In this document: piece after piece, positions 27,332-60,454 of the stretch
Position numbering within the stretch: position 1 is the stretch's first letter
Layout of the letters: each line of letters opens with the position of its first letter
DNA from: Dendrophyllia cribrosa
Lineage: Eukaryota; Cnidaria; Anthozoa; Scleractinia; Dendrophylliidae
Length of the DNA stretch: 64,000 bases
Assembly (NCBI GenBank): GCA_024195265.1
Contig: JAJLRJ010000013.1
Span: 13,454,322 to 13,518,321, forward strand
Direction: 5' to 3'
Translations under genes and position numbers: made by a program
The notes under the pieces: generated by a model
Database searches by the model: none
What the model was told of the DNA's origin: nothing
Seen by the model: the letters and a program-made list of their open reading frames with translations, nothing else

Positions 27332-27434
27332 ATGAAGTGCGGCACGAAACATTATTCGCTTTTGCAAATACTTCTTTTTCTCTTCAGTCAGTTTATTTTG
27401 TGGATAAACGGGTTTGTATCGGGTACGCTATTAG
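27332..27434 (+). CDS. Gene B exon 1: start codon and signal peptide
   Basis: ATG at 27332 opens MKCGTKHYSLLQILLFLFSQ then FILWINGFVSGTLLG, a clear signal peptide. It ends at the strong donor TTAG|GTAAGT in phase 1, which matches the phase of every FN3 exon. This ATG is chosen because it is the first one directly before the hydrophobic core. Confidence 0.85.
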
Positions 27435-28386
27435 GTAAGTCAACTTAAATGTTAGCCGATATATTTTTTTCGATTGATACTGAATCACCAGACAACGTTA
27501 ATTTTTTCAAGTGGTGCAACTCTTAAATTGTGAGGTAACGTCTTAAAAGCTCTTCCTTTTCAGCATTGTGACATTCTTAGCCGCAACAAAATATGTATTT
27601 AAAAACCATTGCGTAACCATTGCGTGCCAGGCAGAAAAATTGCTTGTTGAAGTTCTAAAATATACTGTTTTACAATGTTATTACTAATTCTTTATTCTAA
27701 AACATACCGAACCAGCACATAACTGAAATCTACGCGGCAATAAAGTTAACATTCTTCAGTTATGGGTGGCATTATTTGCCCCGTCGTAATCTTCTGATGT
27801 TACATCGAGATATATCTTTTTAATTTACAGATCAACGAATAAAGATAACTGTAAAACGTCCTAGGCTTGTTGTTTTTATTAAACGTTCAGCACGTCAATG
27901 AATTACGAATTAATGAATTTCTTTTTGCAGAAGGTTGTTTACCTTTGGCGCCACTGAAATAGTTTTTTCTACTTGTATACTAGTAGCAAAATTACTGATC
28001 AATCTTAGTTGTGCTGAGGTTTTTTTAAATACTTATTGCATATCGGATTAAGGTTGTTACAGGGCCCTGAGCTAGGATTCAGATTTATTATTCCTTCTTT
28101 CCTTCTCGAATCTTGTGGGATTTAAGAAAATAATTAACATCGTTTCTATTAAAATTTAGTATTTCTATTTCTAGATTGTTCCATGATATTCCAACAATTC
28201 GGTATTTCAGGACCCCCATCGCGAAAGCAATTTGCAGTCTAACAAACATAAATACTAAACCAAATAAGTCATTCTACAATTTCTTGATTAAAAATTCTTG
28301 ATAGCTTAAGTTTGATTTGCTGTCAACAGAGGTGAGAATGTTTGTGAAATGCATGTCATCATGAGTTAATATGAGGCCGTCAGGCA

Positions 28387-28747
28387 AGTTGAAAGGAAAG
28401 GAGATGAGATGAAAGTAGAAAACAAGGGAAAAATAGGCGAGGAGAGGAAACGACATGAGATGAGGTGAGATGAGAGTGGAAAAGAAGAGTGGAGATGAGA
28501 TGAAAAATAGAAAAGAAGAGAGGAGATGAGATGAGAGTAGAAAAGAAGAGAGGAGAGGAGAGGAGATGAGATAAGAATACAAAATAAAAGAGAAGATGAG
28601 ATGGATGAGATAAGATGAGATGAGAGTTAAAATAAGAGAGAAAATGAGATGAGAGTAGAAAAGAAAAGAGGAAATGAGATGAGATAAGAGTACAAAATAA
28701 TAGAGAAGATGAGATGAGAGTAGAAAAGATGAAATGAGATGAGAGTT
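28387..28747. repeat. Purine-rich GAGATGAGAT minisatellite
   Basis: About 360 bp of imperfect GAGATGAGATGAGAGTAGAA units on the plus strand. The long Ser/Leu-rich open frames on the minus strand are this repeat read backwards. It ends 137 bp before the first FN3 exon of gene B. Confidence 0.92.
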
Positions 28748-28883
28748 GTACAGATAAAACTTTAAAATAAGTTGTCTCTGCACAGGGTAACCAATAATTA
28801 AAGGCTACTCGTATATGCGTACTGTGCAAAAAAGTGTTATTAAATACAATGCTTAACGGATGTTATTTTTTTCGTTTCCTTAG

Positions 28884-29177
28884 AACCGCCGTCAAACATT
28901 TTTGCCTACAACACAAGTTCGTCATCCATCAAAGTTTCATGGGATATTATATCACCGCTCGACCAAGGAAACTCGATTAGCGGCTACAGAGTGAGTTTCA
29001 GAGAACAAAGTTTGAACCAAGAGATGAAGAATGTTCTGTGTTCATCGCCGTATGTTTACTCAATTACACTTAGCTATTTGAAAGTGTTCACAAACTACTG
29101 CATCGAGATTGCTTCTTTCACAAGAGACAGCGTTAGTAACAGAAGCAAGTGTCTCTTCATAACCACAGGCGAAGAAG
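28884..29177 (+). CDS. Gene B exon 2: FN3 domain 1
   Basis: Phase 1-1 exon of 294 nt (TTTCCTTAG| to GAAGAAG|GTACAT). It reads EPPSNIFAYNTSSSSIKVSW, SGYRVSFRE and the tyrosine corner LKVFTNYCIEIASFTRDSVS. It carries FN3 strands A-G in the usual length. N-x-S sites (NTSS, NRSK) fit an extracellular location. The next coding exon is 11.6 kb away because of inserted elements. Confidence 0.88.
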
Positions 29178-29804
29178 GTACATAATCAGGAGCCCATGAC
29201 ATAATCAAGCAAAGGTTTATATGAGCAAACTCGTGAATATAGGTCCTAAATAACGTATTTTTCACTGAAATATTTCATAGCTTTATCATAACAGAAGAAA
29301 GCGGTGAAGCCACTGGGCGATTTTTTGGGTGATATGCTGTACTTACTGTTTATTTCAAAACAAGAACTCTACGAGTCGGTAAAGTCGAGCTTTAAGGTCT
29401 TGTAAGTGCCCCTAAAGCACGGGAATTAATCCAATTGTTATGATTTGTTTAACAGTCGTTTTTGCGGTCACACAAGGTGATCCGTCAAGCACGTTACTAC
29501 GTCTAGTGCATGCAAGGTCCATTCTGATCTGTTCCTCGAAAGAAAGAAAAGGAAATAGTTATCGATTGGAACTCTCGCCAAATCCGGCAACAATGTAACT
29601 CCCTTTTACTGATATGTTTCGTTTCGTCATTTTCTTTTTTCTTTTGTTGTAAATTGATTTTCAGTTTCACGATATTGATAATGCTTAGTTGCTATCTGAT
29701 CTATTATGACCTTAAAGTTGCCATGTCAAGTGATATGACGTCACTTTGTGGTCATTTTTATCTGTGAATACGCGAAGCAGTGTCTTTGACTTCAAACTCA
29801 GGAT
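29178..29804. other. Gene B intron, nothing coding
   Basis: AT-rich sequence; the end (about 29755-29804, GTGAATACGCGAAG, CTTCAAACTCAGGATGG) belongs to a dispersed repeat also at 18500-19140. Confidence 0.45.
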
Positions 29805-29816
29805 GGAAAATTAAAA

Positions 29817-30032: not shown

Positions 30033-30043
30033 AGAAAATTAAA

Positions 30044-30929: not shown

Positions 30930-30939
30930 TCTAAAAGAA

Positions 30940-32144
30940 AACACTGCGCAATTTTAAGAAAGCTTACCAAGATAAACTGTTAATTCAGAGACAGCAAGGA
31001 AATGTACAACAAGTTACGTCGCTTAAGAGATTACCTCGTGGTCGTCCCCTTTTGCTTCTTGAGCTTGACTGCAAACTAATTTCATTTGCGAAAAACGTCA
31101 GAGCCAGAGGAAGAGTGGTAAATGGCAGCGTAATATCTGCAGCTGCAAAAGGGTTGATTAGAAACAATCCATCGTTGCATCAAAGGCATAATTCCTTTGA
31201 GCTTGCACGTGGCTGGATACAGTCAATATATAGACGCTGTAACTTTTCTCGCCTGGCAGGAACCACAATAAGGCCGCCAGTTCCCAGGAGCATGTATGAA
31301 GAGTGTAAACTTTCATTTCTCCCTGACATTGACAAATGCATCAGAAAGCATAAGATTTCACCAGCGCTCGTACTCAATGCAGATCAGACCCCAAGTTTCT
31401 ATGTGTCTGTAGGTAGAATGACAGTGGCTGAGAAGAATTCGCAGTCGGTGCCAATCAAAGGACTAACAGACAAGAGAAATATCACTGTCACATTCGTGAT
31501 TTCTTTGGCTGGCGAGTTTTTGCCGATGCAAGTGATATACCAGGGCAAAACAAGAGCAAATCTTCCTCGAAATTTTTTTTCCAAGGGATTTTGTCTTTCT
31601 CAAAACCCCAAAACACTACTCCAACGAAGAGGAAACTCTTAAACTGATTGATTTCGTTATCAACTCGTATCTGGTACAGACACGCCAGCAGTTGAAGTTA
31701 CCACCTACCCAGAAAGCAATACTCATCTGGGATGTTTTTAGAGGCCAGAAAACAGAGTTTTGTCAAAACTGGCTTCTTTAAACAACGAAGTCGTAACTTT
31801 CCCTACGAATATGACTCATTTTTTTTCAGCCTTTAGACTTAACAGTTAATGGCCAGGCTAAGAAATTCTGCAAAGAGAAGTTTACCACCTGGTACTTGGG
31901 AGAGGTTCAAAGGCAGTTAGACAGTGGGACAAGCTTTGAAGACAAAGAGGTTGATCTCAGGATGTCAGTAATCAAGCCAATTCACGCATCAGTCTGGCTT
32001 GTCGAATTATACGACTATCTGACTGGCGCTGAAGAAAGGAAATATATCCTCAAGGGATGGGAGAAAGCGGGAGTCAAGGAAATTGCCAACAGCGTCAAAC
32101 CACTACCACCTGTTGATCCATTTGAAGTAATCTACCGGGCTTGA
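30940..32144 (+). pseudogene. DDE-superfamily (Tigger/pogo-like) transposase relic
   Basis: Frames on the plus strand add up to a broken transposase. The first long frame (about 30945-31642) has a basic LPRGRPLLL tract, a helix-rich DNA-binding part (ALVLNADQTPSFY holds the first catalytic Asp) and ITVTFVISLAGEFLPMQVIY. A frameshift near 31585 moves to a frame with ILIWDVFRGQKTEF (second Asp), then a stop. The last frame (31840-32144) carries QPLDLTVNGQAKKF (third Asp) and VDLRMSVIKPIHASVWLVEL. At least two frameshifts make it non-functional. It lies in the second intron of gene B, 98 bp before the Gypsy element. Confidence 0.75.
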
Positions 32145-32242
32145 TCGGTGTTGTTAGAATGTTAATGGTTACTCGTACAAGAAGCATTGACTTTGTGTGA
32201 AAATGTAAATATGAGCGAGGACAGCATTAAGATATGACATTG

Positions 32243-32413
32243 TGTAGCAAGCAAGTCGCAAGAGACTGGGCCTAGTCCCGAGTTGATATTATGGGATGTA
32301 AAAGAATCCCATGTGCGAAGTTCGAGTTGTAAAAAAGTCGGATCACTCGATGTTTTCTGTGTGTGCGTCTGTTTTCGAAGAAAGATTAAAGAACATTTTG
32401 TCGGAGTGTAACA
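32243..32413 (+). repeat. 5' LTR of Gypsy element 1
   Basis: Starts TGTAGCAAGCAAGTCGCAAG and ends GGAGTGTAACA; 171 bp, TG...CA ends. Contains AGATTAAAGAACA near the 3' end. Confidence 0.95.
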
Positions 32414-32415
32414 TT

Positions 32416-32433
32416 TGGTGACCCCGACGTGAC
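32416..32433 (+). promoter_or_regulatory. Primer-binding site, complementary to tRNA-Trp 3' end
   Basis: TGGTGACCCCGACGTGAC begins two bases after the LTR. Its first 17 bases are the complement of the conserved 3' end of metazoan tRNA-Trp (..TCACGTCGGGGTCA plus CCA), as I recall that tRNA. Confidence 0.7.
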
Positions 32434-33796
32434 ACAGAGGAATGGCCAGCGTAGTGGAAGAAACCCAGATCGAATTAAGAGCCGCAGTTTGTCAGACGAA
32501 GCGAATCTTCGGGAGCTATGTGTGGAATTACAAATCGAGTTAAAGGAGAACGAGACGGGCCGCCTTGCCCTAATTCAACGAGTTACTAAATACTTGGACG
32601 CCGAAGAATTAGAAATAGAAGCATTGCAGAAACTGAGAGCGACGGTTGTGACGAAGAAGAAATCTCTTGCGAAGGTCAAGAGCGAACAGGACACGGAAAA
32701 GAAGGCATCCGAGCAGAAATCAAATCAGCCCGAGGCGAGTGTGCTGAGTGTAGATACATCGAAAGGATTTACAGCAGTCCCACCATTCAAGAAAGAGTTT
32801 AAAATATCGGGACAGATCGGGGATTCGCGTCAAAAGGATCGCCTTAGCTTTACCAGCTTGGCTCATCAAATTAACGCTGGGTTAAATCGTGGCTACAACG
32901 AAAAGGATGTAACGGAGGCGGTCATCCGGGCGATCAATCCTGGACTAAGGCTAAGAAGTTACCTTGAAGGTAAGCCCGATTTGACTTTAGCCACACTACG
33001 TAAAATTCTTCGGTCGCACTACCAAGAAAAAGGGGCGACTGAAATGTACCAAATGCTCAGTTCTGGGGTTCAAGAGGGTGCTGAAACCCCCCAGGACTTT
33101 CTTGTCCGCCTCCTGGACCTTAAGCAGAAAGTACTGTTCGCCTCCCAAGAAGCAGGTTCTGATTTGAAGTATGACCCTAAGCTTGTCCAATGCATGTTCC
33201 TACACTCATTGCTAACTGGCTTACAGAGTGACAGTATTAAATCAGAAGTAAAGCCTTACCTTCAAAATGCTGATGTGACGGATGAAGAACTGTTTGAAAA
33301 GCTAAATGAAGCAGTTGGCAATGAAATGGAACGATGTTAAAAGCTTGGCCCCCGGCGTGAACAGCACCTGAGACAGGGCCCCCTACAACAAGTAGCTCAA
33401 ATGGTTTCCTCAGGTGAAAACCAAGGTGTGGCGGAGGGTAAGACCCCGGAAAAGCCAGCAAAAGTCAACTTACTTACTGAAGTTAGAGAAATGAAAGCAG
33501 AACTAGCAGCCATCAGGGAAACCATGGGAAACCAACGTAACACTGGCCCCCCAAATCAATACAGATTTGTAGAGCAGGGGAGGTCGCGCCCCAGGGGTTG
33601 CTTGAGTTGCCAAAGAGAAGGTGTAGGTTACCGTTGTGACCGTTGCTTCAGTTGTGGAGGGCGTGGACATTTCAGTTACCAGTGTTTCAGACCAAGGTTA
33701 CAAAGCCCAGAACATTTCCAGGGAAACGGCATGGGGTCGCCACCGCGGGACAGGAGGCAACCCAGAAGATACATGAACAGTCCCTACAATGCATGA
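32429..33796 (+). pseudogene. Gag of Gypsy element 1, with in-frame stop
   Basis: One frame runs 32429-33796 apart from a single TAA at 33338-33340. It holds a basic N-terminus, a capsid-like helical region (LSFTSLAHQINAGLNRGYN...) and, near the end, a CCHC zinc knuckle [14 protein letters not shown]. No in-frame ATG is seen near the start, so the initiation codon is unclear or lost. The frame overlaps pol by about 157 nt; pol is in the -1 frame, so pol was probably made by -1 frameshifting. Confidence 0.85.
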
Positions 33797-36700
33797 ATTG
33801 TGGGAAAAGGGAACAACAGGGCAACAGGCACTTACGCTGCTCACAGTGCCATGCCAGCTATTATTGTTCAAAAGTGTGTCAGAGGACACATTGGGAGGAT
33901 TACAAAACACTTTGCCAAGCCATTAGAGAGGTGGAATCCAGACAAACCAGGGCAAGTGTTGGAGACATGAATACGTCATTTCCCTCTCATCGAACACCAC
34001 GACAGCGTACAAAATTGACCAAGTTAGTGGGAAGAAGATGTATGGTAAGCTGTGTACTGCAGGGGAGAAGAGTGGATGCCCTGTGGGATACTGGTGCTCA
34101 GGTCTGTGTTATGTCGAAGCGTTGGAAAGAGATTCATTTACCTGAAGAACCAGTAAGAGACATCAGTGAGTTACTGGAGGGAGAGGAACTGAATCTTCAA
34201 GCTGTAAATGGTACGGAAATTCCATATGATTGTTGGGTCAAGGTAGATTTTCAGCTAGCCGGAGGGAACGAAGAATCTGAACTATTGACAATTCCCATAC
34301 TCGTAGGAAGTCAGGATAACCAAGAACATCCCATCATCGGGTTTAATGTCATTGAAGAGGTGATAAAAAGAAATGGGAGTCCTGACGCCCCAAATGTCTT
34401 AACTCAAATAGTGAATGATTCATTTCCATCAGTAGTGGGAGGCAAGGCAAAATCGCTTGTTAACTTCCTTCAAACCAAGGAAAAGGAGGCTGATACCGGG
34501 GTGCTTAGAGTTGGAAAGCATGACATACATCTAGCACCAGGAGAGACTGTAAGGATTAAGTGTGTAGTGCACTTTGGGCCATTAGAGGAAGATGTACCAG
34601 TTGTGTTTGAACCTAAAGAAGACGGGATGTGGCCTGAGGGACTAGAAGTGAAAGAATGCCTTAACCGGATCCAGGCCGGGTCGTCGAGCAGAATATTTGT
34701 CCCAGTATGCAACCAGACACAGAGGGGGATAACTTTACGCAAACGTACCGAACTGGGCACGATACAGTTAGTGCAGTCTGTTACCCCATTGCCATTCGAA
34801 GACAACAAGCAAGAGGAGCCTGAAAGCAGAAGTAGTGTTACAGAGGAAGCCAACATCGGAAATGATGCAAGTGATGGTAATCGAAAGTCTGAAAAGTTTG
34901 AACAAGGAGAAGGACAATGGGTTCCGCCAGTTGACCTTAGCCATTTGTCGTGTGAACAGAGAGGAATAGTAGAGGCAATGTTAAAGGAGGAGTCCGGAGC
35001 CTTTGCTATGGATGACGGTGACATTGGTTATGCTAGGGAATTGGAACTTGATATTAACCTTAATGATGATAAGCCAGTGCAGAAAACTTACAACTCCATC
35101 CCAAAGCCCTTGTACGGAGAGGTAAAAGCGCATCTGCAAGACATGATTACTCGTGGTTGGATAAGCAAATCAAAGTCACCATATTCATCACCAGTGGTTT
35201 GCGTCAGAAAAAAAGATGGTACCTTGAGATTATGTGTCGATTATCGTCAATTAAACAGCAAAACCAAAGATGATCGCCAACCGATCCCCCGTATCCAAGA
35301 CATCCTGAACAGCCTTAGTGGTAACACCCACTTCTCAGTTCTCGACCAAGGGAGAGCATATCACCAGGGATTCGTAGCAGAAGAACACCGCCACTTAACA
35401 GCATTCATCACACCTTGGGGGTTGTACCAATGGAACCGCATTCCATTTGGTTTAAAAAATGTCCCAGCAGCTTATCAGAGGTACATGGAGAACTGCTTAG
35501 AGGGCCTGCGAGATGAGATATGTATCCCCTACCTGGACGACATCCTAGTATATAGTAAAACGTTTATGGAGCATGTAGAAGATGTAAGACAGGTACTGAA
35601 ACGTTTGCAAGGACATGGCATTAAACTTAAGGCAAAGAAGTGTGATCTGTTTAAGCCAAGTGTTCGTTACTTGGGAAAGATAGTTACAGCGGATGGTTAC
35701 ACAATGGATCCCGCTGATCTGGCAGCCGTAACAGCCCTCAAAGAAATGAAGCCAAAGACTGTAGGTGCCCTACGCAAACTCCTCGGTTTCATTAGCTATT
35801 ACCGGCAGTACATAAAGGACTTCTCCAGACTAGCTAAGCCACTCTATGACCTGCTGTCATCAGCTAAAGACATAAGTAACCAAGGCATCACAACTGGGAA
35901 ACGGAAAGAGCCCAAGAGGTCAACACCTCCAGGAGGACAACTGTCATCAAACCAACAAATCAATTAGACTGAGCAACATCAAGAACGACTAAACCTCTTA
36001 GTCGACCTTTTGTTGCAGCCAGGAGTAATGGCTTACCCTGACTTTGAGAAACCATTTGTGTTACACACAGACGCCTCGTGTGAAGGCCTTGGAGCGGTCC
36101 TGTATCAGGAACAGGAGGGCAAGCTGAGAGTTGTTGGATACGGCTCAAGGACACTCACACCAGCAGAGCGTAACTATCATCTTCATTCCAGGAAACTGGA
36201 ATTTCTGGCCCTGAAATGGGCCATCACTGACAAATTCCGGGACTATCTATTCTATGCGCCGTCTTTCGTTGTATTCACCGACAACAACCCACTGACGTAC
36301 GTTATGTTATCGGCCAAGTTGAATGCAACCGGTCATAGATGGGTGGAGGAATTGGCGGACTATAATTTTACCATCAAGTATAGGCCCGGTCACTTGAATG
36401 TTGACGCAGATGTTCTGTCAAGGATGCCATTAGACATGGACAGATACATGAGAACCTGTACCGAAGACGTATCTCAGGAAGTCCTTGGAGCCACAATCGA
36501 AGCAGTGAGGGAACAGTCAAAAGGTACAACTCCGTGGATAACAGCGATCACTGGTGGTTTGACAACAGCTGAACTTACACTTGGGGATCTAGACATGAAG
36601 ACATTCAGTCCACAAGAAATCAAGGAGGCACAGCACAAGGACACTGTTATTAGTCGAGTAATCCAATACAAGTCCCATGGAGCCAGACCGCATGGAACCC

Positions 36701-38496
36701 AACTGAAACACGATCCCCGTGTTGTCACCACCCTGGTACGAGAATGGAACAAACTGGAAATTGATGATAATGGTATTCTACAGCGACGAACTAGCTCTAA
36801 CATACAATTAGTCCTGCCGAAGCAGTTTATACCATTGGTGTTAAAGGAACTTCATGTAGAGATGGGACACCTCGGAGTGGAAAGAGTAGCTGATCTGGCA
36901 AGATCTCGCTTTTACTGGCCCCATATGTATGATGACATTGAACAGTTTGTGAAACACAGGTGCACATGCCTTAAACAGAAGAAACCTAACACGACTGCCA
37001 AGGCACCTATGAGCAGCATAATGACATCGGCACCCTTTGAACTGGTGTCCATCGATTTTCTACATCTGGACAAGAGCAAGGGTGGATATGAATACGTATT
37101 GCTTATTGTCGACCATTTTACTAGATATGCACAAGCGTACGCGACACGCAACAAGACAGCCCGCACAGCTGCTGAGAAGATCTACAACGAGTTTATTCCA
37201 AGGTTTGGTTTTCCCGCACGTGTACACCACGATCAAGGTGGAGAGTTTGAAAACAAATTGTTTCATCACCTTGAACGCCTGAGTGGGGTGGCTAAATCTC
37301 GGACCACCCCATATCACCCACAGGGCAACGGACAGGTGGAGCGCATAAACCGTACCCTACTATCAATGTTGAGAACCCTACCGGAGGAAAAGAAAGCAAA
37401 CTGGAAAGACTCTTTGAACAAACTCATCCATGCTTACAATTGTACAAAGCATGAAGCCACTGGCTTTTCTCCATTTTACCTAATGTTTGGCCGTACGCCA
37501 CGTTTACCAGTTGACCTGATGTTTGATGTAGGCAACGACGATCAGCAGTGTGATTACCCGGATTATGTAAAGAAATGGCAAAGAGAAATGCGAAAAGCAT
37601 ACGCCCTATCATCCAGGCGAATTGAGAAATCATCTGTCAGAGGTAAAGCGTATTATGACAGGAAAGCTCCTAGTGCTGTTCTACACCCTGGTGACCGTGT
37701 ACTTGTGAGAAATCTCTCAGAAAGAGGAGGACCCAGGAAACTCCGTTCACACTGGGAACAGCAAATACATGTAGTCGAAGAACGTATATCTGACAGCCCA
37801 GTCTACCGAATAAAACCCGAGCATGGCCGTGGCAAACAGAGAGTACTACACCGTAATTTGCTCCTTCCCTGTGATGCCTTACCATTAGATCTGCCAGACT
37901 ATAAGAGAGAGTTTCGCAAGTTGACCCAGCCTACCCACACTGCACTACAAGTATCTCCCTCCGGAGGCAATGAAGAAAGTTCTGACGATGAATATGGAAT
38001 TGATATACCATATCCTTCTGTTGTCCACGACGCTGACCGTGATGGATATGAAATAGACAGCCCGTCTATTGACCCAGAGGAACAGTGTCACCCTATGGAT
38101 TCTCAGGACAATTCCGATATTCACTCTGAGACCCAGTTTGACCCAGAAGTAGATGATGGTTCACAGGCAGCAGAAGAAGCCGAACTATTTGAAACAGAGG
38201 GCTACAATTCCCCAGAAAGTGCAGACTCGGATTCTGACGAACACTTAGCGGCTACTACGCGGCCAAGGAGAGACAGACAACCACCCCTGATCCTTACTTA
38301 TAACCAGCTGGGAGTACCAGAGTATCAGCGCCTGAATCCTGTAGTAGACGTGATCCAAGCCCCCCAGATGATGTCCCCACCAGTCATGGCTGGCTGGCTA
38401 CTGCCTAATTGCACCCAACACATCCCGTGGTACCCACTGTACCAACCACAGTTACCGATTACATTTCCACAGCCCGTATGGATAAGCCAGTACTAG
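33640..38496 (+). pseudogene. Pol of Gypsy element 1 (MYND finger, PR, RT, RH, IN), one in-frame stop
   Basis: In order: a MYND-like zinc finger (33790-33915), retropepsin with [10 protein letters not shown] (about 34090), reverse transcriptase with the catalytic YLDD box (about 35530), a TAG stop at 35965-35967 between RT and RNase H, then RNase H with HTDAS and FTDNNPL, and integrase with an HHCC-type finger and the D,D,E core (SIDF, HHDQGGEF, GQVERINRTL). A GPY/F-like module (RKLRSHW.., VLHRNLL) and a long acidic tail follow. Everything except the stop is open. Transposition from this copy is not expected. Confidence 0.92.
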
Positions 38497-39822: not shown

Positions 39823-39825
39823 TTA

Positions 39826-40744: not shown

Positions 40745-41062
40745 TTCCAACTGCCCCTCCTCAGAACTTTTCGGTTTTTAACACAAGCTCCACAAGCATT
40801 CGTGTCACATGGGATCCATTACCACTGGAGAATAGACGAGGGATTATCCTGGGATACAAAATATTTTACCAAAAAATTGTTCAAAGTCAACGCGTGTCTC
40901 GAAGCATCGAAGGTGGAGAGCAATCCATAGAAGCCGGTGTCCTTGGCTCTGATATCATGGGATTGGAGAAATTTGCTAACTATTGTGTATGGGGTATGGC
41001 TTTCAATAAAATGGGAAGCGGAAATGAAACAGAGGCTGTTTGCATAAGCACGGAAGAAGACG
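40745..41062 (+). CDS. Gene B exon 3: FN3 domain 2
   Basis: Phase 1-1 exon of 318 nt (TTCTTCAG| to GAAGACG|GTAAAA). It reads VPTAPPQNFSVFNTSSTSIR, VTWDPL, RGIILGYKIFYQK and the tyrosine corner LEKFANYCVWGMAFNKMGSG. Closest in appearance to gene A FN3 domain 3, including the GIILGY turn, so these may derive from the same ancestral module. Confidence 0.88.
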
Positions 41063-41378: not shown

Positions 41379-41681
41379 TTCCTACCCATCCTCCTTTGAA
41401 CATATCAGCTTACAATACAAGCTCCACCAGTGTTTATGTTCGGTGGGATGCTATACCAACAGAATTTATCCCCGGAATACTTCTAGGCTACAAAGTGCTT
41501 TATGGTAAAGCAACTGACTCTTCCTTACAGCACAGTCACGTGATCCTGGGCACTGGTCAGTTGAATGTTGAACTATTGAATCTTGACATGTTAACGGTTT
41601 ACTGCATACAGTTAGCTGGTTTTACAAGAATTGGAGATGGTAACAGAAGCGAATGCGTTTATGTGACTACCGACGAAAGCG
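41379..41681 (+). CDS. Gene B exon 4: FN3 domain 3
   Basis: Phase 1-1 exon of 303 nt (CGTTGCAG| to GAAAGCG|GTGAGT). It reads VPTHPPLNISAYNTSSTSVY, VRWDAIP, PGILLGYKVLYGK and the tyrosine corner LDMLTVYCIQLAGFTRIGDG. N-x-S/T sites (NISA, NTSS, NRSE) suit an extracellular domain. Closely resembles gene A FN3 domain 4. Confidence 0.88.
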
Positions 41682-45930: not shown

Positions 45931-46230
45931 ATGTCATTTGGGTTCCACAACTAGTCGTCGTAATGACTTACAGTCCAACAGCTGTCAAAGTAACATGGGA
46001 AATGCCTTCTGATTTACAAGGGACTATCAGTGGATATAAACTGCATATAGTAGAAACCAGCAGCTCCACTGGGCCACCAGAAACCCTATTCGAGGAATTA
46101 ATAATTATACAAAATGCTTCACAAACGTCTTTAATAATAAGCAATCTTACGATATTCACAAACTATCAGATTCGGATGGCTGCCTTCAATTCCAAAGGAA
46201 TGGGAAATTTCAGTGATCCAGTTAATGCTG
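45931..46230 (+). CDS. Gene B exon 5: FN3 domain 4 (membrane-proximal)
   Basis: Phase 1-1 exon of 300 nt (ATGTTATAG| to AATGCTG|GTAAGA). It reads DVIWVPQLVVVMTYSPTAVK, VTWEMPSDLQGTISGYKLHI and the tyrosine corner LTIFTNYQIRMAAFNSKGMG. It lacks the YC pair, as does the last FN3 domain of gene A, so both are probably the same ancestral membrane-proximal repeat. Confidence 0.87.
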
Positions 46231-47504: not shown

Positions 47505-47794
47505 ATGAGCCATTGGGCTATTAAAACCGCCAGACACATCCGGTATCAAATTTTATAGTGACATAAAACTCCAATTTAAACTGTTTTGCTGTTCTTTACT
47601 TCAGAAACTTTTCATTGCCTCAAATATTTGTCAACGTCCGTAATATGATATGGGACTCTATGAGCCATTGGACTGTTAAAACTGCTAAACTCGTCCGTAT
47701 CTAATTTTATAGTTACATAAAACTCCAATTAAAACAGTTTGAATGCTCTTTACTGCAGAAACTTGTCATTGCCCCAAATATTTGTCAACGTCTG
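47505..47794 (+). repeat. Tandem duplication covering the S1 acceptor and exon start (pseudo-exon)
   Basis: Two copies, 47505-47640 and 47660-47794, each run from ATGAGCCATTGG through an acceptor and the first 36 nt of the S1 exon. The second copy is the real exon start. In the first, the acceptor TTCAG| at 47600-47604 survives, but the first cysteine codon has become Phe and a TGA stop follows at 47646-47648. Confidence 0.85.
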
Positions 47795-48159
47795 TTAGTC
47801 CTTCCCCGCTGGCTCAAGGCGGACCTGGAGGAATAACCGAAGTCATCGCAAACGTTATCAAGAAAACATGTGGCGTCTGCAAGGAGCATGGCGAAACAGA
47901 GCTGATTATTTCCAACAGTTACGACGGAGAATCAAGCCTTCGTTTCCCTATTTCTTTGACAACTCCAAGAGGCAGCAAATCGAGCAAGTTTGTTGCTGTA
48001 TTGGAAGTACCCGGCGTTTTGGTAGTAAAGCGGAGAGGTGATAAGTCTACTCAGCGATATTATGAACAAGTCATGACTGGCTCCCTACTTGACACGTTGT
48101 CGGTCATTATTCTGAGTCTGTTAATGGTATATGTAGCAGGCGTCATAGTCTGGTTTTTG
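47759..48159 (+). CDS. Gene B exon 6: S1-like segment and M1 helix
   Basis: 401-nt exon, phase 1 in (TACTGCAG|), phase 0 out (TTTTTG|GTGAGT). It starts ETCHCPKYLSTSVS, includes GITEVIANVIKKTCGVCKEH and SLRFPISLTTPRGS, then FVAVLEVPGVLVVKRRG, and ends in the hydrophobic helix TLSVIILSLLMVYVAGVIVW. It matches gene A 2053-2438 and occupies the place of S1 and M1 in a glutamate receptor. An arginine in SLTTPRGS falls where iGluRs keep their alpha-carboxylate-binding arginine in a rough hand alignment. Four cysteines in CxC and CxxC pairs are shared by both genes. Confidence 0.83.
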
Positions 48160-48189
48160 GTGAGTTCAATATTTAAAACACTGTAATAG

Positions 48190-48663: not shown

Positions 48664-48758
48664 GATACAAAAGAAAACCCTGATGATTTTTCTAGCAACT
48701 TCTTCAAAGGCGCTTACGAAGGCTTTTGGTGGGCTTTCATCACCATGACAACCGTGGG
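48664..48758 (+). CDS. Gene B exon 7: pore helix and first half of K+ filter
   Basis: 95-nt exon (TTATTTCAG| to ACCGTGGG|GTAAGT), phase 0 in, 2 out. It reads DTKENPDDFSSNFFKGAYEG then FWWAFITMTTVG, the pore helix and first part of the K+ signature. The same length and phases as gene A's exon show common descent. The intron that follows is 8.1 kb and contains a whole Gypsy element. Confidence 0.93.
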
Positions 48759-50520: not shown

Positions 50521-51456
50521 CCAGAAGTCGGTACAGAAGTTTATTCTATATTAAGCGATCTCTTATCGCCAGAAAAACCAAGTGATTCGTCCTTCCTAGA
50601 TATTGTGCAGCGCCTCAAAGATAATAATGAACCCGCTCCGTTGGAAATAACCGAAAGTTTCCATTTTGGCACGCGGAATCAACAACCGAGTGAGTCGATC
50701 AACGATTACATTGAAGCTTTGAAGTAATTGTCCATTCATTGCAATTGGCGAATTCTTAAACCGTGCGTTGAGGGACAGATTTGTCTGTGGCCTGAACAGT
50801 GAAAAGATCCAAATCAAATTACTGAACACTCCAAGTTTAACGTTTGAAAGTGCCTACAAGAATTCCATTACCATGGAATTGGCAGATATGAATTGTCGTG
50901 AGTTTAGTTCAAGAATAGTCGTAAGTTCAGGTACGGAAGCGGCAAGCTCGGTTAACAAAGTAAGTGCAAGCGACAATAGGAATGGCGCTGAGCAACAAGG
51001 TGAAAAGTGTTTCCGAAGCAATGACATCCACTCATTCCGGACCTGGATGAGCTGGGAATTTTCAGTCTGTATGCTACTAGCGGCGGTGGAGCGAAAAAAA
51101 GGCTACATTGTTAAATTGGAAGTAAATGGCATGAATGTTGATATGCAGGTTGACACAGCGGCGGACTTCTCCATTATGAGCAAAGATACGTACTTAAGAA
51201 CATTCCATAACAGGACACTGATGTGAAGTTGAAGACGTATACAGGGGAAACCTTAAGCACATGTGGTCAAATACAATGCAAAGTCGTGTACAAAGGGGAA
51301 GAATGTACACCTCTAATGATCGTGGCTGAGTATGATGATAAGCCAACTTTGCTGGGAAGGAATTGGCTCGAGAAATTAAATCTCGATTGGAGCGAATTTT
51401 TAATTTGCACACACCGGGGAGTGAAAATCTGGATCGCCTTCTTAAAAATCACGTAA
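50521..51456 (+). pseudogene. Gag and protease fragments of Gypsy element 2
   Basis: Gag-like pieces: DLLSPEKPSDSSFLDIVQRL and FGTRNQQPSESINDYI, a stop, then FVCGLNSEKIQIKLLN in another frame. Protease: MQVDTAADFSIMS (DTA in place of DTG), then a stop and a shift to LLGRNWLEKL. No zinc knuckle is visible in the piece between. Confidence 0.75.
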
Positions 51457-52619
51457 AACTTTTTAATGAAGGTTATGATGGCATGAAGGGGCTGGAGGCC
51501 CACATTCGGGTACATGAAGGTTCTTCGCCAATTTACTTCAAAGCACGCCCGGTACCCTATGCTTCGAAAGAGGCAGAGGCAGAGCTCAACAAACTGGAGG
51601 AAAATGGTGTTATTGTTAAAATTGAGCAGAGTGACTGGGTAAGCCCGATAGTTGTAGTGCCAAAGGCTGATGGGTCTGTGCGAATATGCGGTGATTACAA
51701 GGTGACCATTAATCAAGTGGTTGATGATGAACAATATCCTCTTCCAACGGCGCAAGACTTGTATTCCATTCTTGCTGGATCCAAGGAGTGTTCACCAAAC
51801 TCGATCTTTCACATGCTTATGCACAAATGAGTGTCAATAAAGTCAGCCAGAAATGCTTAAGTATCAACACCCATAAAGGACTGTACGCCTACACGAAGTT
51901 GCCGTATGGTGTAAAATCTGCGCCAAAGATTTTCCAAGCGACCATGGACAAGATTTTACAAGGGGTTGAGAAATGTGTGTGCAATCAAGATGATATTCTT
52001 ACTGGCAGTGTTGACACTAAAGAGAACCTGGGAATTCTGGCCGAGGTATTAGAAAGGACTACACAAGTATAATATGCGGTTAAAGCTGAGCAAGTGTATT
52101 TTCCTGACGAAGCAAGTTGTGTTTCTTGTCCTACGTGTTGATGGTGACGAGTTGCACCCAGTTCAGGAGAAGATTGCAGCCATTAAGAATGCCCCAGTTC
52201 CGACGAATGTGAGTGAATGTCGGTCTTTCTTTGGCATGGTACAGTACTACTTACTAGGGTTGGCCACCACTCTCGCACCTTTGCACCAGTTGGTAAAGAA
52301 AGATACCCAGTGGAAGTGGACCCGTGAAGCACAGAAAGCATATGAAAGATGCAAGACAAGTCTTACCAGCGACGCCCTCCTTGTACATTATGATTCCAAA
52401 CGGGAACTTCGACTGGCGTGTGATGCTTTATCTTATGGACTTGGTGCAGTAATCAGTCATGTGATGGATGACGGGCATGAAAGACCGATTGCATTTGCGT
52501 CAAGAACATTGACTACCAGTGAGAAAAATTATGCCCAAATCGAAAAAGAAGCTTTATCCTTGGTGTTTGTGGTAAAGAGATTCCATCAATTCCTGTATGG
52601 CCGTAAATTCACCCTGTGA
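51363..52619 (+). pseudogene. Reverse transcriptase / RNase H fragments of Gypsy element 2
   Basis: Three frames: the first has YFKARPVPYASKEAEAELNK and SPIVVVPKADGSVRICGDY; the second FTKLDLSHAYAQ and a degenerate catalytic box (CNQDD, the usual first residue Tyr is Asn or Gln); the third FFGMVQYY, LACDALSYGLGAVISH and IEKEALSLVFVVKRFHQFLY. The frame changes near 51780 and 52072 and the RNase H ends at a stop at 52617-52619. Confidence 0.85.
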
Positions 52620-52967
52620 CCGACCACAAGCCCTTCCAAGCAATCTTGGGTCCCAAATCTGCAGTTCCAACCTTAGCAGCAGCACGTATGCAAAGATGGG
52701 CACTCGTGCCATCGGCATGATTATGACCTCGAGTATCGCAGGTCGGAGAAACATTCCATCGCTGACGCTCTATCGAGATTGCCTCATTAGAACTCAAGTG
52801 AGGGCATGGAGTGTGAAATCTATACAATTAGATCAGTTCGTAAATATTTCCCGGTTATGGCCGCGGATATTGCGCAGGAGACGCTAAATGATCGATGTTT
52901 GTGCAGGGTGTATGAGAATAATTTGAATGGATGGCCTGAGATGTGTGATGATGTGGAGCTGAAACCA

Positions 52968-53398
52968 TTAATCTTTAATCTTTAATCTTTAATCTTTAAT
53001 CTTTAATCTTTAATCTTTAATCTTTAATCTTTAATCTTTAATCTTTAATCTTTAATCTTTAATCTTTAATCTTTAATCTTTAATCTTTAATCTTTAATCT
53101 TTAATCTTTAATCTTTAATCTTTAATCTTTAGTCTTTAATCTTTAATCTTTAATCTTTAATCTTTAATCTTTAATCTTTAATCTTTAATCTTTAATCTTT
53201 AATCTTTAATCTTTAATCTTTAATCTTTAATCTTTAATCTTTAATCTTTAATCTTTAATCTTTAATCTTTAATCTTTAATCTTTAATCTTTAATCTTTAA
53301 TCTTTAATCTTTAATCTTTAATCTTTAATCTTTAATCTTTAATCTTTAATCTTTAATCTTTAATCTTTAATCTTTAATCTTTAATCTTTAATCTTTAT
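52968..53398. repeat. (TTTAATC)n heptamer array, about 61 copies
   Basis: Almost perfect 7-bp repeat over 430 bp with one substitution (G at 53132). It joins directly to the 3' end of the minus-strand LINE. Confidence 0.97.
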
Positions 53399-53542
53399 TT
53401 ATACACGGTAAAAAAAATCATCAGGTATAAAAATTCCTATACAATAACTAACGTACTAAAACCTTAAAATCCTAATCTTAACATTAAATATTAACTTAAA
53501 ACAATAAGCCACGCAAAAACCTGATTTCCATGAATGCCGTGT

Positions 53543-54577
53543 TTAAAAATTATAGTAGAGAAGGCGTTTAAATTCACTTAATGAATAAGACTCTCTAATG
53601 TTACAGGGTAAGCTGTTCCAAACGGTTGCCCCGCTGTAACTAAAACTATTTTTCATGTAGTTAGTTCTTGGAAAGGGGACAACAAGTTTGTTTACCGAGT
53701 TCCTCAAAGAATAGTTTGATTCATTTCGCTTTATAAATTTACATGTGAGATATTCAGGTACCAGACCGTTTAAAGACTTGAAGACCATTAAGGCGTTCTG
53801 AATTTGACGTTGAGAATACAAGTCTTTCCAGTTGAGTTTGTGAAACAAGGAATAAACATATACGTCATAGTTTGACGAAGTTATTACTCGTGCAGCACGG
53901 TTTTGTAGTTTTTGTAGCTTATTAGATAATGTTTTGCCACAATTACCCCAGATTGGGCTGCAGTAATCAAAGTGAGATTGAACTAATGAGTTGTATATAT
54001 TGAGTAGAATGGATTGAGGCACAAATGGCTTAACTCGCTTTATGGCTCCAATTGCAGAAGCGATCTTTTTACACAGTTTATCAATGTGGGAATGCCACGT
54101 TAAATTTTCATCGATATAAATTCCAAGTGATTTCACAGAAGAAACTTGTTCAATTGGAACATTATCAATGGAAAGTTTGAGTGTATCATATAGAGTACTT
54201 AATCTTTGCCTTGAGCCGATCAACATAAATTCAGTCTTTGTAGCGTTCAAGGTAAGTCTGTTAGACAGAAGCCATTTACTTAGCTTTTCAAGTTCTTGAG
54301 ATAGACTAGACTGAATCGAATGCAAATCAGAACCAGCATAAGTAATGTGGGTGTCATCAGCATACATTCTAGGCACGCTGAACGATAGACAGTTAGGTAA
54401 GTCGTTAATATAAATTAGAAATAAAAGAGGGCCAAGGATCGTTCCTTGTGGCACACCACATTTAAGAGTGGTGAAGTCAGAGAGACAGCCATTAACTGAG
54501 CACTGTTGTGTGCGATTCGTCAAGTACGATTTAAACCAATGAAGAGTTTTACCTTGAATCCCACATCGATTCATCAT
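53543..54577 (-). CDS. Non-LTR reverse transcriptase (jockey/CR1-like), C-terminal part
   Basis: 344-residue open frame ending at TAA. It begins inside the RT palm with GIQGKTLHWFKSYLTNR, then CGVPQGTILGPLLFLIYIND, the catalytic MYADDTHI (YADD), KSLGIYIDENLTWHSHI and the typical C-terminus with CSPIWGN and GATVWNSLP. These are the marks of jockey-clade or related LINEs. The endonuclease and early RT are missing because of 5' truncation; the apparent start is just the truncation point. No frame breaks inside, so the insertion is rather young. It is antisense to gene B. Confidence 0.88.
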   Translation of the reverse strand: MMNRCGIQGKTLHWFKSYLTNRTQQCSVNGCLSDFTTLKCGVPQGTILGPLLFLIYINDLPNCLSFSVPRMYADDTHITYAGSDLHSIQSSLSQELEKLSKWLLSNRLTLNATKTEFMLIGSRQRLSTLYDTLKLSIDNVPIEQVSSVKSLGIYIDENLTWHSHIDKLCKKIASAIGAIKRVKPFVPQSILLNIYNSLVQSHFDYCSPIWGNCGKTLSNKLQKLQNRAARVITSSNYDVYVYSLFHKLNWKDLYSQRQIQNALMVFKSLNGLVPEYLTCKFIKRNESNYSLRNSVNKLVVPFPRTNYMKNSFSYSGATVWNSLPCNIRESYSLSEFKRLLYYNF

Positions 54578-54599
54578 TCATCATTCATCATTCCATAAT

Positions 54600-55250
54600 A
54601 GAAGGCATGAACTGTCCTGTGAGCAAGGATGTGTCCTCTGGAGAATTCGAGTGAATGTTCCTGCGAGGTTTAGAAGTCATTTGCTGAAGGAATTGTACTG
54701 GGAACATCTGGGCGTGTGTAGTATGAAAGCCATTGCTCGAAGTTTCATGTGGTGGCCTGGACTGGACGGAGAAATCGAATCGGTGGTCAAGAGTTGTACA
54801 GTGTGTCAGAATGTGAGAAGTTTGCCACCCAAAATGCCTTTGTATTCCCAGAAATGGCCAACAAAACCCTTTCAGAGAGTTCACATTGACTTCTACCAGA
54901 AGGGAAAAGATTACTTTCTTGTGCTCGTTGACAGTCATTCTAAATGGATAGACGTAAAGCACATGACCTCCACCACAACTGAGCGAACCATTGACGAATT
55001 AAGGCTCATCTTTGCTGAGCATGGCTTGCCGGAACAATTGGTGTCCGATAATGGTCCACAGTTTACGTCAGATGCATTTGCTAAGTTCATGTGTCAGAAC
55101 TGAATCAAGCATAGGTTGGTTCCCCCATACCACCCGGTTTCAAATGGTGCAGCGGACAGGTCAGTCCGTGTAGTGAAGGAAGCCTTGGAGACATGTCAAT
55201 GAAGCACAGACTGGCCAATTTTCTGATCAAGTACCGATCTACACCCACAG
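54600..55250 (+). pseudogene. Integrase fragment of Gypsy element 2
   Basis: Continues after the LINE: HLLKELYWEHLGVCSMKAIA, CTVCQNVRSLPP (zinc-finger CxxC), VHIDFYQKGKDYFLVLVDSH (first Asp), LVSDNGPQFTS (second Asp), then stops and frameshifts. The Glu region is damaged (SNGAADRSV). Confidence 0.85.
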
Positions 55251-55939
55251 TGTGACCGGGCGAACTCCAGCTGAACTTATGGTGAAGAGACTTTGCAGAA
55301 ACCAAATCTGGCACAAGCTGTTGAGAGCAAACAGATGAAACAAAAGTAGTACCATGAAAAGTCTCAGATTGAGTGAGTATTCAAGGAGAATGATCCTGTT
55401 AGAGTTCGCAGTTCTGTCAGAGGATTTAAGCCGGAGTTGGTGGAAGTCGGTGGTATCTGGTTCAAGCGGAAAACTTGACAAGGCACGTTCACGCAGATCA
55501 TCTCATTACAGCACTCGATAATGAGGAGGCCTCAACCGATCCGGGAAATTTTTTTGAGCCGACAGGAAGCATGTCTGAACCTGATGTTTGCGTACAAGTG
55601 GTTCCTGGAAGTAATTTTAAGTCACAGTCAAGTCGCACCCCACAACTGATTCCTGAGAGTAATCAAACTGAACCTGTGCTGTCGCTCGCTCCTGCACCCG
55701 AAACAGCAAACTTGCCTTTTCCTGGAGAGGCACAAACAGGGAAAGCACCAGAAATAACATCATCGCCACTCCGAACTCTGAGACGCTCGGGTAGAATAAG
55801 GAAGCCGGTCGTAAAGATGAATTTGTGAAAATCAGACTTGTATCAGACAAAAATAAGAACAGAGAACAATGTCGTACTTTTTCTATTACTGTTTATGTAT
55901 TTTTCATATCTTGTTTACCTCTTTTTGGTGGGAAAGTGG
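55251..55939 (+). pseudogene. 3' coding remnant of Gypsy element 2
   Basis: A 117-codon frame at 55475-55828 (VQVVPGSNFKSQSSRTPQL..., ending LRRSGRIRKPVVKMNL) is the Pro/Ser-rich tail after integrase that Gypsy elements often carry. Ends shortly before the polypurine tract. Confidence 0.65.
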
Positions 55940-56095: not shown

Positions 56096-56100
56096 TAACG

Positions 56101-56865: not shown

Positions 56866-57031
56866 TTATGGTGATCGTTGTCCCAAGTCGAACCGTGCCA
56901 AAGCTTTTGCCATTGTGTGGTTACTTACCAGTCTCATACTGTTTTCATTTTTGATGGGTGCAATATCTTCAATTTTAACTGTCACGGTGATTGAGTCAAG
57001 AATAATAGTCCCTAAAAGCGGTGGAAATAAG
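56866..57031 (+). CDS. Gene B exon 8: YGD filter end and M3 helix
   Basis: Acceptor TTTTTTGCAG|, phase 2 in; donor AATAAG|GTTATT, phase 0 out; 166 nt. It completes G then YGDRCPKSNRAKAFA and the helix IVWLLTSLILFSFLMGAISS followed by ILTVTVIES. The joined signature is TMTTVGYGD. YGDRxP followed by a helix ending in small residues resembles GluR0 more than Kv channels. After M3 the chain should be extracellular. Confidence 0.92.
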
Positions 57032-57863: not shown

Positions 57864-57936
57864 GTAGCAGCAATTACTAACTCGGCAGAAGAAAAGTTGG
57901 CAATTAAGGGACAGTTGGGAAGCAAGTTGAAGCTAA
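57864..57936 (+). CDS. Gene B exon 9: start of S2-like segment
   Basis: 73-nt exon (TGCTTAACAG| to GCTAA|GTATGA), phase 0 in, 1 out. It reads VAAITNSAEEKLAIKGQLGS then KLKL. This corresponds to the post-M3 start of S2 in glutamate receptors and periplasmic binding proteins (I.s..dL..k.i....gs). Recognised by frame continuity and position, so somewhat less certain than its neighbours. Confidence 0.7.
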
Positions 57937-58657: not shown

Positions 58658-58923
58658 CCACAACATATTCAACTGTGGAAGCGCTGACCAGGTCTCTTAA
58701 GGAAGGCAAAGTGGACTACGTGATTGTTGACATGTATCTTCCAGTTAAACGTAAAGACTTGTTCAATGGTTCTTGGTTTGAAATTGTAGCATTGCTGGAA
58801 GTAGAATTGTACCACGGGGTCATTCTACAAGGGGATGCATTTAAACTGGCCTTAGCACTTGAAAGGATGATAAAATTCGACAATGTGCAGACGAAATATC
58901 TTGAAGACCAGGAAAAGGAAGAG
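58658..58923 (+). CDS. Gene B exon 10: main S2-like binding-protein half
   Basis: 266-nt exon (TTTTCTTAG| to GAAGAG|GTTCTT), phase 1 in, 0 out. It reads TYSTVEALTRSLKEGKVDYV then IVDMYLPVKRKDLFNGSWFE, then VELYHGVILQGDAFKLALAL and a helix LERMIKFDNVQTKYLED. The pattern (helix, GKVDYVIVD, then strand plus GVIL and a final helix ending KYL) is that of the second half of iGluR and SBP_bac_3 folds. The Asp in VIVDMYL stands where iGluRs keep the acidic residue that binds the ligand amino group, by hand alignment. An earlier AG at 58607-58608 would give a longer exon but breaks the frame. Confidence 0.8.
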
Positions 58924-59434
58924 GTTCTTTTTACACCTATTGCTTTTTTCTTCTTCTCTTCTTTCTGTATTTAATCTGAAATCACGACAAATGAAATCCG
59001 ACCTTAATGCACAAACATGCTGTAGGTAACAAAGCGGAAAATACTCCTTTGCAGTCACGATTGGTTCGAAAATATAAATGTGTTTATTGGTTAATACAGG
59101 TTTCTGTTAAATGGTATTTTAATCAAAGATATAACTCGCCACCTGCTATGAACACCAGCGCTGACTTCTATTAAGATATTCAAAAAAGGAACGGGGTCAT
59201 CAAGGAAAAAGAAAACTAAAAACATTGCGCGGCAAATATGTTCCTTAGTGTACCAGGCACAAGTAAAAAACACATGTATATCCTCGAATATATGGTAGTA
59301 CAACGAATTTTAATAATACTTTTAATAGCCGGTCAACTTTGCTACCGTCTTGAAACACTACATGATATTCCGAGAAAAAATTCAATAAGAACGGTAAAAA
59401 ATTGTTTCGACATTTTTTTGGTCTTTTTTTACAG

Positions 59435-59594
59435 GAACCAAGCCCAATAGAGTCCAAAGAGTCCTTGTTTTTCGATCCCTCCAGTCCTTTCTTCCAGTAT
59501 ATTTTGTATGCAAGCCTGGGTACCCTGTGTTTCTTCCTGGTCTGTGGTGGACTGTATCAAGTAATCTACCTTAAACAAAGAAGACGATCATATT
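59435..59594 (+). CDS. Gene B exon 11: M4 helix
   Basis: 160-nt exon (TTTTTTTACAG| to TATT|GTAAGT), phase 0 in, 1 out. After EPSPIESKESLFFDPSSPF it has the hydrophobic helix FQYILYASLGTLCFFLVCGG then LYQVIYLKQRRRSY. A single membrane span followed by basic residues is the M4 of the glutamate-receptor layout and puts the tail in the cytoplasm. Confidence 0.87.
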
Positions 59595-59996
59595 GTAAGT
59601 ATTGTTTTGTCCGGAAAACCACTACGGTTAGAGTCGAATGTAAACAGCGTAGATGTATGTAATCAAACAAGAATGCGAGTAGAACAATGTGCATGCGCAT
59701 GCTATCTGTCTATCTTCATTATTATTTTATTATTTTAATTTATTTCTGTTTTCAAACTTTACAAAAATCAGTGATTTACCAGTAATAACTTTGCCAAACA
59801 ACGTTTTGCATCCAGATTTTGGAATGTGCTAACGATACCAAGAGTTCCATACCGTGATGCTTAGCGCTTTCTCTAGCCTGTCTACACCACTATTTTTCGT
59901 GGCAAATAGCCTTACAGTCTATTAATAATATATTAATATGTACTTCTCTTGAACTAATTACTCACAGGCGTTTGTTTTACATTTGCTAAAAATGTT

Positions 59997-60209
59997 TAAC
60001 CCTTTCACTCCCAAGAGTGCCAAACAACAAAATTCAAGAAAAATTCCAAATTTCATTTTGTAAAATATCGAAAAACAAATGGTACCATGCAAAAGTACTG
60101 GCGAAGAGGTTTCATTTGAATGGTCACACCATAGGATTCCATCTACAGACTCAAAAGTTAGAACTACACTACATGTCTCCATAATGGACTCTGGGAGTGA
60201 AAGGGTTAA
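59997..60209. mobile_element. MITE with TTAACCCTTTCACTCCCA ends, copy 1
   Basis: TAACCCTTTCACTCCCAAGAG at the left and inverted CTCTGGGAGTGAAAGGGTTA at the right, 213 bp. It lies in the last intron of gene B, ending 39 bp before the final exon. A second copy is at 61276-61576. Confidence 0.85.
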
Positions 60210-60248
60210 ACATTTAAAACTGGATTCTTTTCTTTGCTGGAATTACAG

Positions 60249-60454
60249 GTGTATACACGGCAGATCTGGAGAAAAGCCGTAGAGAGCTAAAAGGCTTGGT
60301 CGATGAATTTTATCACTCCCTCCACCAGATTTGGAGGGAAATGAGAAAGAGGCACAAGCAAGAGCTTTTGGAGCTGGGGCGAAAGAAGAGAGAGAATAAA
60401 AGAAAGCGGAGCAACCGTAATAGAATAATTACGATTTTCAGTTCAAACAACTAG
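60249..60454 (+). CDS. Gene B exon 12: basic cytoplasmic tail and stop
   Basis: 206 nt from acceptor GGAATTACAG| to TAG at 60452-60454. It reads VYTADLEKSRRELKGLVDEF, YHSLHQIWREMRKRHKQELL, ELGRKKRENKRKRSNRNR, then IITIFSSNN. Heptad-like spacing of Leu and charged residues suggests a short coiled coil followed by a polybasic stretch. This could serve assembly or membrane-lipid or nuclear-signal-like contacts; that is inference. Confidence 0.85.

Follow-up and report, generated by a model that had tools for sequence, protein, structure and literature searches.

The window analyzed here is the whole 64,000-nucleotide stretch of contig JAJLRJ010000013.1 (positions 13,454,322-13,518,321; assembly GCA_024195265.1) of the stony coral Dendrophyllia cribrosa. 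Based on gene structure, profile comparisons and structure models of relatives, gene B on its plus strand (27332..60454) is likely, on balance, to encode a K+-selective receptor channel of the GluR0/AvGluR1 type, with four FN3 domains in its outer part. In a sequence-only reading, this locus had been described as 12 exons joining into one frame of 894 residues with four FN3 domains, an S1-like part, M1, the filter TMTTVGYGD, M3, an S2-like part, M4 and a basic tail. The gene model guided by coral relatives reproduces that frame exactly with 11 GT-AG introns, and Pfam, hydropathy and residue counts agree with the FN3 domains, filter, membrane segments and tail. With respect to the two lobes, S2 is borne out by both profile and structure model, whereas S1 is borne out by the model of a relative and not by sequence.

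The 12 exons of gene B span 33 kb and join into 894 codons with no stop or frameshift. Exon 1 (27332..27434, + strand, as are all exons of gene B) carries the start codon and the signal peptide (MKCGTKHYSLLQILLFLFSQFILWINGFVSG), judged from its frame, GT donor and hydrophobic residues 7-31. Exons 2-5 (28884..29177, 40745..41062, 41379..41681 and 45931..46230) encode FN3 domains 1 to 4 and are matched by Pfam fn3 and by Montipora P0001 in tblastn at 48%, 54%, 61% and 51% identity, respectively. Each of these exons is in phase 1 at both ends, which is the usual sign of exon shuffling. The S1-like lobe and M1 are encoded by exon 6 (47759..48159; P0001 tblastn 60%; structure models of relatives), the pore helix and filter start (TMTTVG) by exon 7 (48664..48758; 67%), and the filter end (YGD) and M3 by exon 8 (56866..57031; 61%), so that the codon for the first Gly of GYGD is interrupted by intron 7. 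Exon 9 (57864..57936; 61%) encodes the first strand and helix of S2 (VAAITNSAEEKLAI...), exon 10 (58658..58923; 62%) S2 with the conserved Asp (VDMY) and the sequon NGS, exon 11 (59435..59594; 61%) M4 at hydrophobic residues 792-819, and exon 12 (60249..60454; 52%) the basic, predicted cytoplasmic tail to the last codon. The border between exons 9 and 10 was weak and uncertain in a draft of 907 amino acids, which was superseded once agreement with coral relatives fixed this border and gave the 894-residue protein.

P0001 matches exons 2-12 collinearly at 48-67% identity and gives no tblastn match to exon 1; because of this ordered match and the 15 related proteins described below, a chance reading of the frame was dismissed. 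It is hardly credible that gene B is a pseudogene or an artefact in which FN3 exons and channel exons of different genes have been joined. Long introns with transposon-like frames, the lack of an independent match to exon 1 and two weak donors, after exons 8 (GTTATT) and 10 (GTTCTT), could suggest such an error, but the 894 codons are uninterrupted, and collinear relatives are found in several corals. Moreover, FN3 and channel parts share a single frame in P0004 (753 amino acids on a 3,136-base contig) and P0017 (666 amino acids on a 2,752-base contig). Since gene B needs 33 kb for the same parts, these contigs are most simply taken as spliced transcripts. Annotated coral proteins and contig-long frames thus join the FN3 and channel exons, whose separation in transcripts had been named as the result that would overturn the earlier proposal. 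Within intron 2, open frames at 30935-32144 (+) resemble what we take to be a DDE (pogo/Tigger-type) transposase, and those at 32390-38496 (+) presumably belong to a Gypsy-type long terminal repeat (LTR) element and include parts resembling a zinc knuckle, a protease, a reverse transcriptase, RNase H and an integrase. Broken pol-like frames on both strands of intron 7 (50440-55828) are presumably a second LTR-type element, inside which lies a frame (53543-54577, -) that we take for a reverse transcriptase of the long interspersed nuclear element type. The element at 50440-55828 sits in the intron that divides the filter codon.

In the encoded protein, Pfam detects fn3 in four stretches (E 3.4e-39), Ion_trans_2 (E 3.6e-12) and Lig_chan (E 5.9e-6). 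With a 19-residue mean above 1.6 as the hydropathy criterion, the signal peptide is followed by hydrophobic stretches at 543-576, 615-648 and 792-819, in the order S1-M1-P loop-M3-S2-M4. The last 68 residues contain 19 Lys and Arg against 9 Asp and Glu and form a basic tail. The FN3 part contains 11 N-glycosylation sequons and S2 contains one (residue 721); none is located past M4, a distribution that fits an orientation with FN3, S1 and S2 outside and the tail inside. The LIVBP-like amino-terminal domain (ATD) was looked for ahead of S1 by Pfam and in the P0001 fold and is absent there, its place being taken by the four FN3 domains. The filter is of the TXVGYG type, and the channel is very probably K+ selective.

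Relatives of gene B were collected with residues 440-907 of the 907-residue draft as the query, for which the 7990 candidates with the most words in common were scored, and 15 proteins matched at E<=0.001. Precomputed FN3 domains are present in 12 of them, namely P0004 and 11 proteins from Montipora, Acropora, Oculina, Porites, Desmophyllum and Stylophora; the other three are P0013 and Macrostomum P0014, both FN3-less, and the plain channel P0015. The motif T[VL]GYGD is found in 20 of 24 family rows. Models P0006, P0007, P0012 and P0020, from Porites, Desmophyllum and Stylophora, lack it, and they either jump from M1 (or FN3) to S2 or carry foreign sequence. These losses are probably gene-prediction errors, because an intron divides the filter codon. 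A further search, in which 2106 candidates gave eight matches (seven named corals and P0004), missed the known members P0008, P0009 and P0011 and is therefore no evidence of absence in other taxa.

The conservation of the pore bears on whether gene B is an adhesion receptor that acts through its FN3 part and has a pore that is silent or a constant K+ leak, which we consider improbable. FN3 strings are common in adhesion receptors, as the fold match to LAR illustrates, annotation pipelines have given relatives the names of phosphatase receptors, and between gene B and Oculina P0002, FN3 domain 3 is kept like S2 (69% and 70% identity). However, identity in this pair is 71% for the pore exon and for the M3 exon and 70% for the S2 exon (S1-M1 67%, M4 56%), against values of 51%, 64%, 69% and 51% in the exons of the four FN3 domains, which argues for conduction, as does a filter that is intact in every row except the four models that skip the pore. 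Database names of the relatives are 'uncharacterized', 'hypothetical' or taken from phosphatases. For gene B as well as P0001, P0002, P0008, P0009 and P0011, Pfam matches no phosphatase catalytic family at E<=1, and the PF16656 match lies on the FN3 part. The names given to P0001 ('receptor-type tyrosine-protein phosphatase S-like') and P0011 ('PTPRQ-like') therefore seem to be wrong and misleading.

The ancestry of gene B was approached with a profile of six family members, against which the 7997 candidates with the most words in common were scored. Directly after the family rank 16 prokaryotic-type proteins with SBP_bac_3 and Lig_chan (E 2.7e-28 to 6.2e-17), and plain K+ channels rank below them (best 4.2e-9). 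These 16 proteins are regarded as GluR0-like because their own profile finds GluR0 (Slr1257) and AMPA receptors in the PDB. A pore profile detects 16 of 16 GluR0-like proteins at <=7.8e-21; it also detects all 56 K+ channels, the strongest of these matches having E 2.3e-17. Targets of the part profiles were preselected by the earlier search, so that these E-values are relative only. In hhalign, the S2 of FN3-type members is joined to that of FN3-less relatives at 98.4% (E 4.4e-15), and FN3-less S2 to GluR0-like S2 at 96.2% (E 2.2e-9, 111 columns), with K+-channel controls at <=0.28%. The similarity of S2 to GluR0-like proteins thus appears to be reached via the FN3-less relatives. The two S1 sets, FN3-less and FN3-type, also align with each other (88.5%). 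A C-terminal helix common to FN3-type (11 rows) and FN3-less (five rows) members was considered but found no support, with 0.3% in hhalign and four of 100 column-shuffled controls scoring as high.

An ordinary two-pass K+ channel with unrelated outer parts and no tie to glutamate receptors would explain two PDB sequence searches, the first of them made with the channel part of the 907-residue draft, in which the best 60 of 274 and of 473 matches are K+ channels aligned over the pore, KvAP first. This explanation is very improbable, since M4 is present, the S2 profile matches GluR0-like proteins and not K+ channels, the pore is nearer to the GluR0-like proteins, and the S1-S2 fold is kept in the model of a relative. 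In that model, S1 and S2 are predicted to form a two-lobed type-II binding-protein clamshell. Foldseek matches the model of P0016 to NMDA and AMPA receptors, GluR0 is among the top fold matches, and the FN3 string of P0001 matches LAR and also contactins. An S2 region devoid of a binding-protein fold, the second result named beforehand as fatal to the earlier proposal, is not what the relative's model predicts. Orthologs, profiles and the structure model therefore agree with the proposed combination of a glutamate-receptor layout with a K+ filter and a relation to GluR0, and we are highly confident that gene B has its ancestry in GluR0-type receptors.

The ligand site was considered with reference to ionotropic glutamate receptors (iGluRs), in which, as stated in a passage of PMC6307864, the ligand backbone is held by Arg485 and an acidic residue at GluA2 705. 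In an alignment comprising rows with an intact channel part other than P0024 and P0014, Asp stands at the GluR0-like position in all 17 family rows (11 FN3-type and six FN3-less) and in 14 of 16 GluR0-like rows; Asp and Leu are invariant, and Ser nearly so, in a ten-row S2 alignment. This Asp may correspond to the acidic position GluA2 705. An Arg to hold the ligand carboxylate is doubtful: 12 of the 16 GluR0-like rows have Arg in the column typical of these proteins, and five of the 11 FN3-type rows, including gene B, have Arg one column off. With an Arg adjacent to this column, gene B could be gated by amino acids; for Acropora and Montipora the usual rule makes such gating unlikely. Gating by a small ligand is given about an even chance.

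Several results weigh against a receptor of the GluR0/AvGluR1 type. The other six FN3-type rows and all six FN3-less rows lack an Arg at or next to the GluR0-like Arg column. The Lig_chan match of gene B reaches 26.6 bits against the Pfam cut-off of 30.8, which is also missed by P0001 (26.8), P0008 (30.3), P0011 (22.3) and P0013 (30.3) and exceeded by P0002 (32.4), P0009 (39.8) and P0014 (32.2). The S2 hidden Markov model profile lists 16 of 16 GluR0-like proteins, none at E<=1e-3 (best 0.004), and nine of 56 K+ channels (best E 1.9), while direct alignment of FN3-type with GluR0-like S2 gives 51.8% over 23 columns only. The S1 profile finds none of the 16 GluR0-like proteins at E<=1e-3 and lists five of them and two of 56 K+ channels, none under E 5, and S1 alignments with GluR0-like proteins give 0.06-0.37% in hhalign; homology of S1 to GluR0-like proteins is accordingly not demonstrated at the sequence level. 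Furthermore, the structure models are those of relatives, not of gene B, their mean predicted local distance difference test scores of 75.7 and 70.3 (22 sequences) are middling, and with large or helical models the Z scale of the fold comparison runs at a high background.

The unmatched S1 and the missing Arg are also what would be expected if the clamshell were a relic that takes no small ligand and serves as the coupling between FN3 array and gate. The channel would then be opened by a partner on the cell surface or in the matrix, or by tension in the FN3 string. The variation of outer domains among paralogs above a constant channel points the same way. On the other hand, the S2 Asp, Leu and Ser are retained as described above, both lobes are kept in the fold model, and no adhesion partner is known; we consider a relic clamshell unlikely, though well worth attention. 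For the preferred reading of gene B as a K+-selective receptor, the following mechanism could be envisaged. Four subunits, as in the family, may surround the K+ pore. The clamshell of S1 and S2 would lie outside, seated on the pore linkers as in the fold predicted for a relative, and the four-FN3 array stands atop it where animal iGluRs bear the ATD, as sequence and orthologs show. The ligand may be an amino-acid-like small molecule that sits in the clamshell, or else a partner to which the FN3 array binds. When the clamshell is closed or pulled, the M3 gate could open, and K+ efflux would hyperpolarize the cell.

The tree comprises 40 rows, from which P0006, P0007, P0010, P0012, P0015 and P0020 were excluded (broken pore, fragments, plain channel). 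Six of the 56 K+ channels were picked, one of them lacked the motif, and five entered; P0016, whose own record has no FN3, was scored as FN3-type on account of its 97% identity to P0004. All 11 FN3-type rows group together (support 100/100; 200 of 200 bootstrap trees). Two FN3-less coral forms, Acropora palmata P0021 and Porites P0023, adjoin this group (95/93), and the remaining FN3-less forms are more distant; the branches of Macrostomum and P0024 are long. Gene B groups with Acropora and Montipora against Oculina and Pocillopora, Porites P0006 being outside the tree. The GluR0-like rows come together in 58% of bootstrap trees, which falls short of showing a single clade. Most simply, FN3 domains and channel were fused once, in the lineage leading to stony corals. 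Since the named FN3-type members span five families, which we take to be Acroporidae, Poritidae, Oculinidae, Pocilloporidae and Caryophylliidae, this event looks old within the group.

Gene B has the S1-M1-P-M3-S2-M4 order and the fold in common with animal iGluRs (NMDA, AMPA, kainate, delta, epsilon, lambda). The outer domain of animal iGluRs is an LIVBP-like ATD, and to our knowledge their pores are without a K+ signature. LAR-type receptor phosphatases and contactins have an FN3 string like that of gene B but no channel. The nearest known receptor type by profile is GluR0 (Slr1257, Synechocystis), which shares an SBP-type clamshell divided by a TXVGYG pore; it is described in PMC11479355 as having neither M4 nor ATD, whereas M4, a basic tail and four FN3 domains are present in gene B, the S1 of which is not matched to GluR0-like proteins by sequence. 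AvGluR1 of the rotifer Adineta vaga resembles gene B in combining an animal iGluR layout with a K+ filter; it is said in PMC12332018 to have the usual eukaryotic iGluR architecture, and FN3 is not mentioned in the passages that describe it. That K+-filtered iGluRs are known from bacteria and a rotifer, as the sequence-only reading stated, agrees with passages of PMC12332018, PMC11479355 and PMC12226733, which name bacterial GluR0 and the K+-selective AvGluR1 of one rotifer.

The sequences collected here suggest that the family is wider than the bacterial form and single rotifer of these review passages, including corals and a flatworm at least. Pore and filter are as in gene B in the FN3-less relatives P0013, P0018, P0019, P0021, P0022, P0023, P0024 and Macrostomum P0014, and the seven other than P0014 have S2 with the conserved Asp. 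No FN3 is listed for these proteins, Acropora palmata, Porites evermanni and Macrostomum are among their sources, and none bears a receptor name; they seemingly form a wider undescribed family of iGluR-like proteins with a K+ filter. Two broad iGluR phylogenies, PMC6307864 and PMC12226733, contain neither 'fibronectin' nor 'GYG' in their main texts. Among the matches listed in open-access PMC, neither a title nor the opening of an abstract mentions an iGluR with FN3 domains or a K+-filtered iGluR from a coral, in line with the earlier remark that an FN3 stalk replacing the ATD was unfamiliar. The FN3-bearing K+-filtered receptor of stony corals is thus probably new to description.

Gene A is a paralog of gene B that lies on the minus strand and extends from about 14.6 kb to past the left end of the window (292-14584 mapped); the two genes are divergent, with 12.7 kb between their first mapped exons. 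Its order is C-type lectin, F5/8 type C (F5/8C, discoidin), five FN3 exons, S1-M1, the filter TTLG|YGD, M3 and the start of S2, and Montipora P0011 (CLEC, F5/8C, FN3, channel) is collinear with it in tblastn. The C-type lectin (14213..14584) is supported by Pfam Lectin_C (6.1e-13) and P0011 tblastn (43%). The F5/8C domain (12961..13812) consists of exons 13812-13501 and 13128-12961, with P0011 tblastn identities of 49% and 53%; Pfam matches the first piece (1.9e-10) and assigns no family to the second. The FN3 exons 11479-11156, 9049-8756, 7967-7590, 6081-5776 and 5066-4797 (4797..11479) all match Pfam fn3 (E 4.6e-14 to 4.6e-6) and P0011 (48-59%). The S1-like lobe and M1 (2053..2457) match P0011 at 56% and P0002 at 34% in tblastn, with no Pfam family. 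The pore helix (1322-1227), the filter with M3 (675-496) and the S2 start (363-292), which together cover 292..1322, were assigned from frames and P0011 tblastn (72%, 46%); the filter is interrupted by an intron at the same point as in gene B.

Paralog pairs on contigs of the same size are P0001/P0011 of Montipora, P0002/P0008 of Oculina, P0007/P0012 of Desmophyllum, which have consecutive locus numbers, and P0009/P0020 of Stylophora; such pairs probably lie on one contig. The outer domains of P0009 include F5/8C and TSP1 (Pfam). Across paralogs, one channel type appears to be retained beneath varying outer domains (lectin, F5/8C, TSP1), which may be exchanged in the manner of recognition receptors. 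It is conceivable, though doubtful, that this is a coral recognition-receptor family signaling by K+ efflux, in which the FN3 string binds a partner and pulls the clamshell so that contact leads to hyperpolarization. If so, paralogs headed by lectin, discoidin or TSP1 could have kin, microbes, algal symbionts or the skeleton matrix as partners. In the coral branch, the outer domain would have been swapped for adhesion-type domains, and a gene B-type channel could convert contact or an outside small molecule into an inhibitory electrical signal. These sequences correct misleading database names of coral genes. They also make it testable at which point animals retained or gave up the K+ filter, whether a stimulus other than an amino acid can drive the clamshell of an iGluR, and whether inhibitory K+ receptors act in coral contact sensing. 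Elsewhere in the window, the stretch 62200-62700 is repetitive-looking and open in several frames on both strands.

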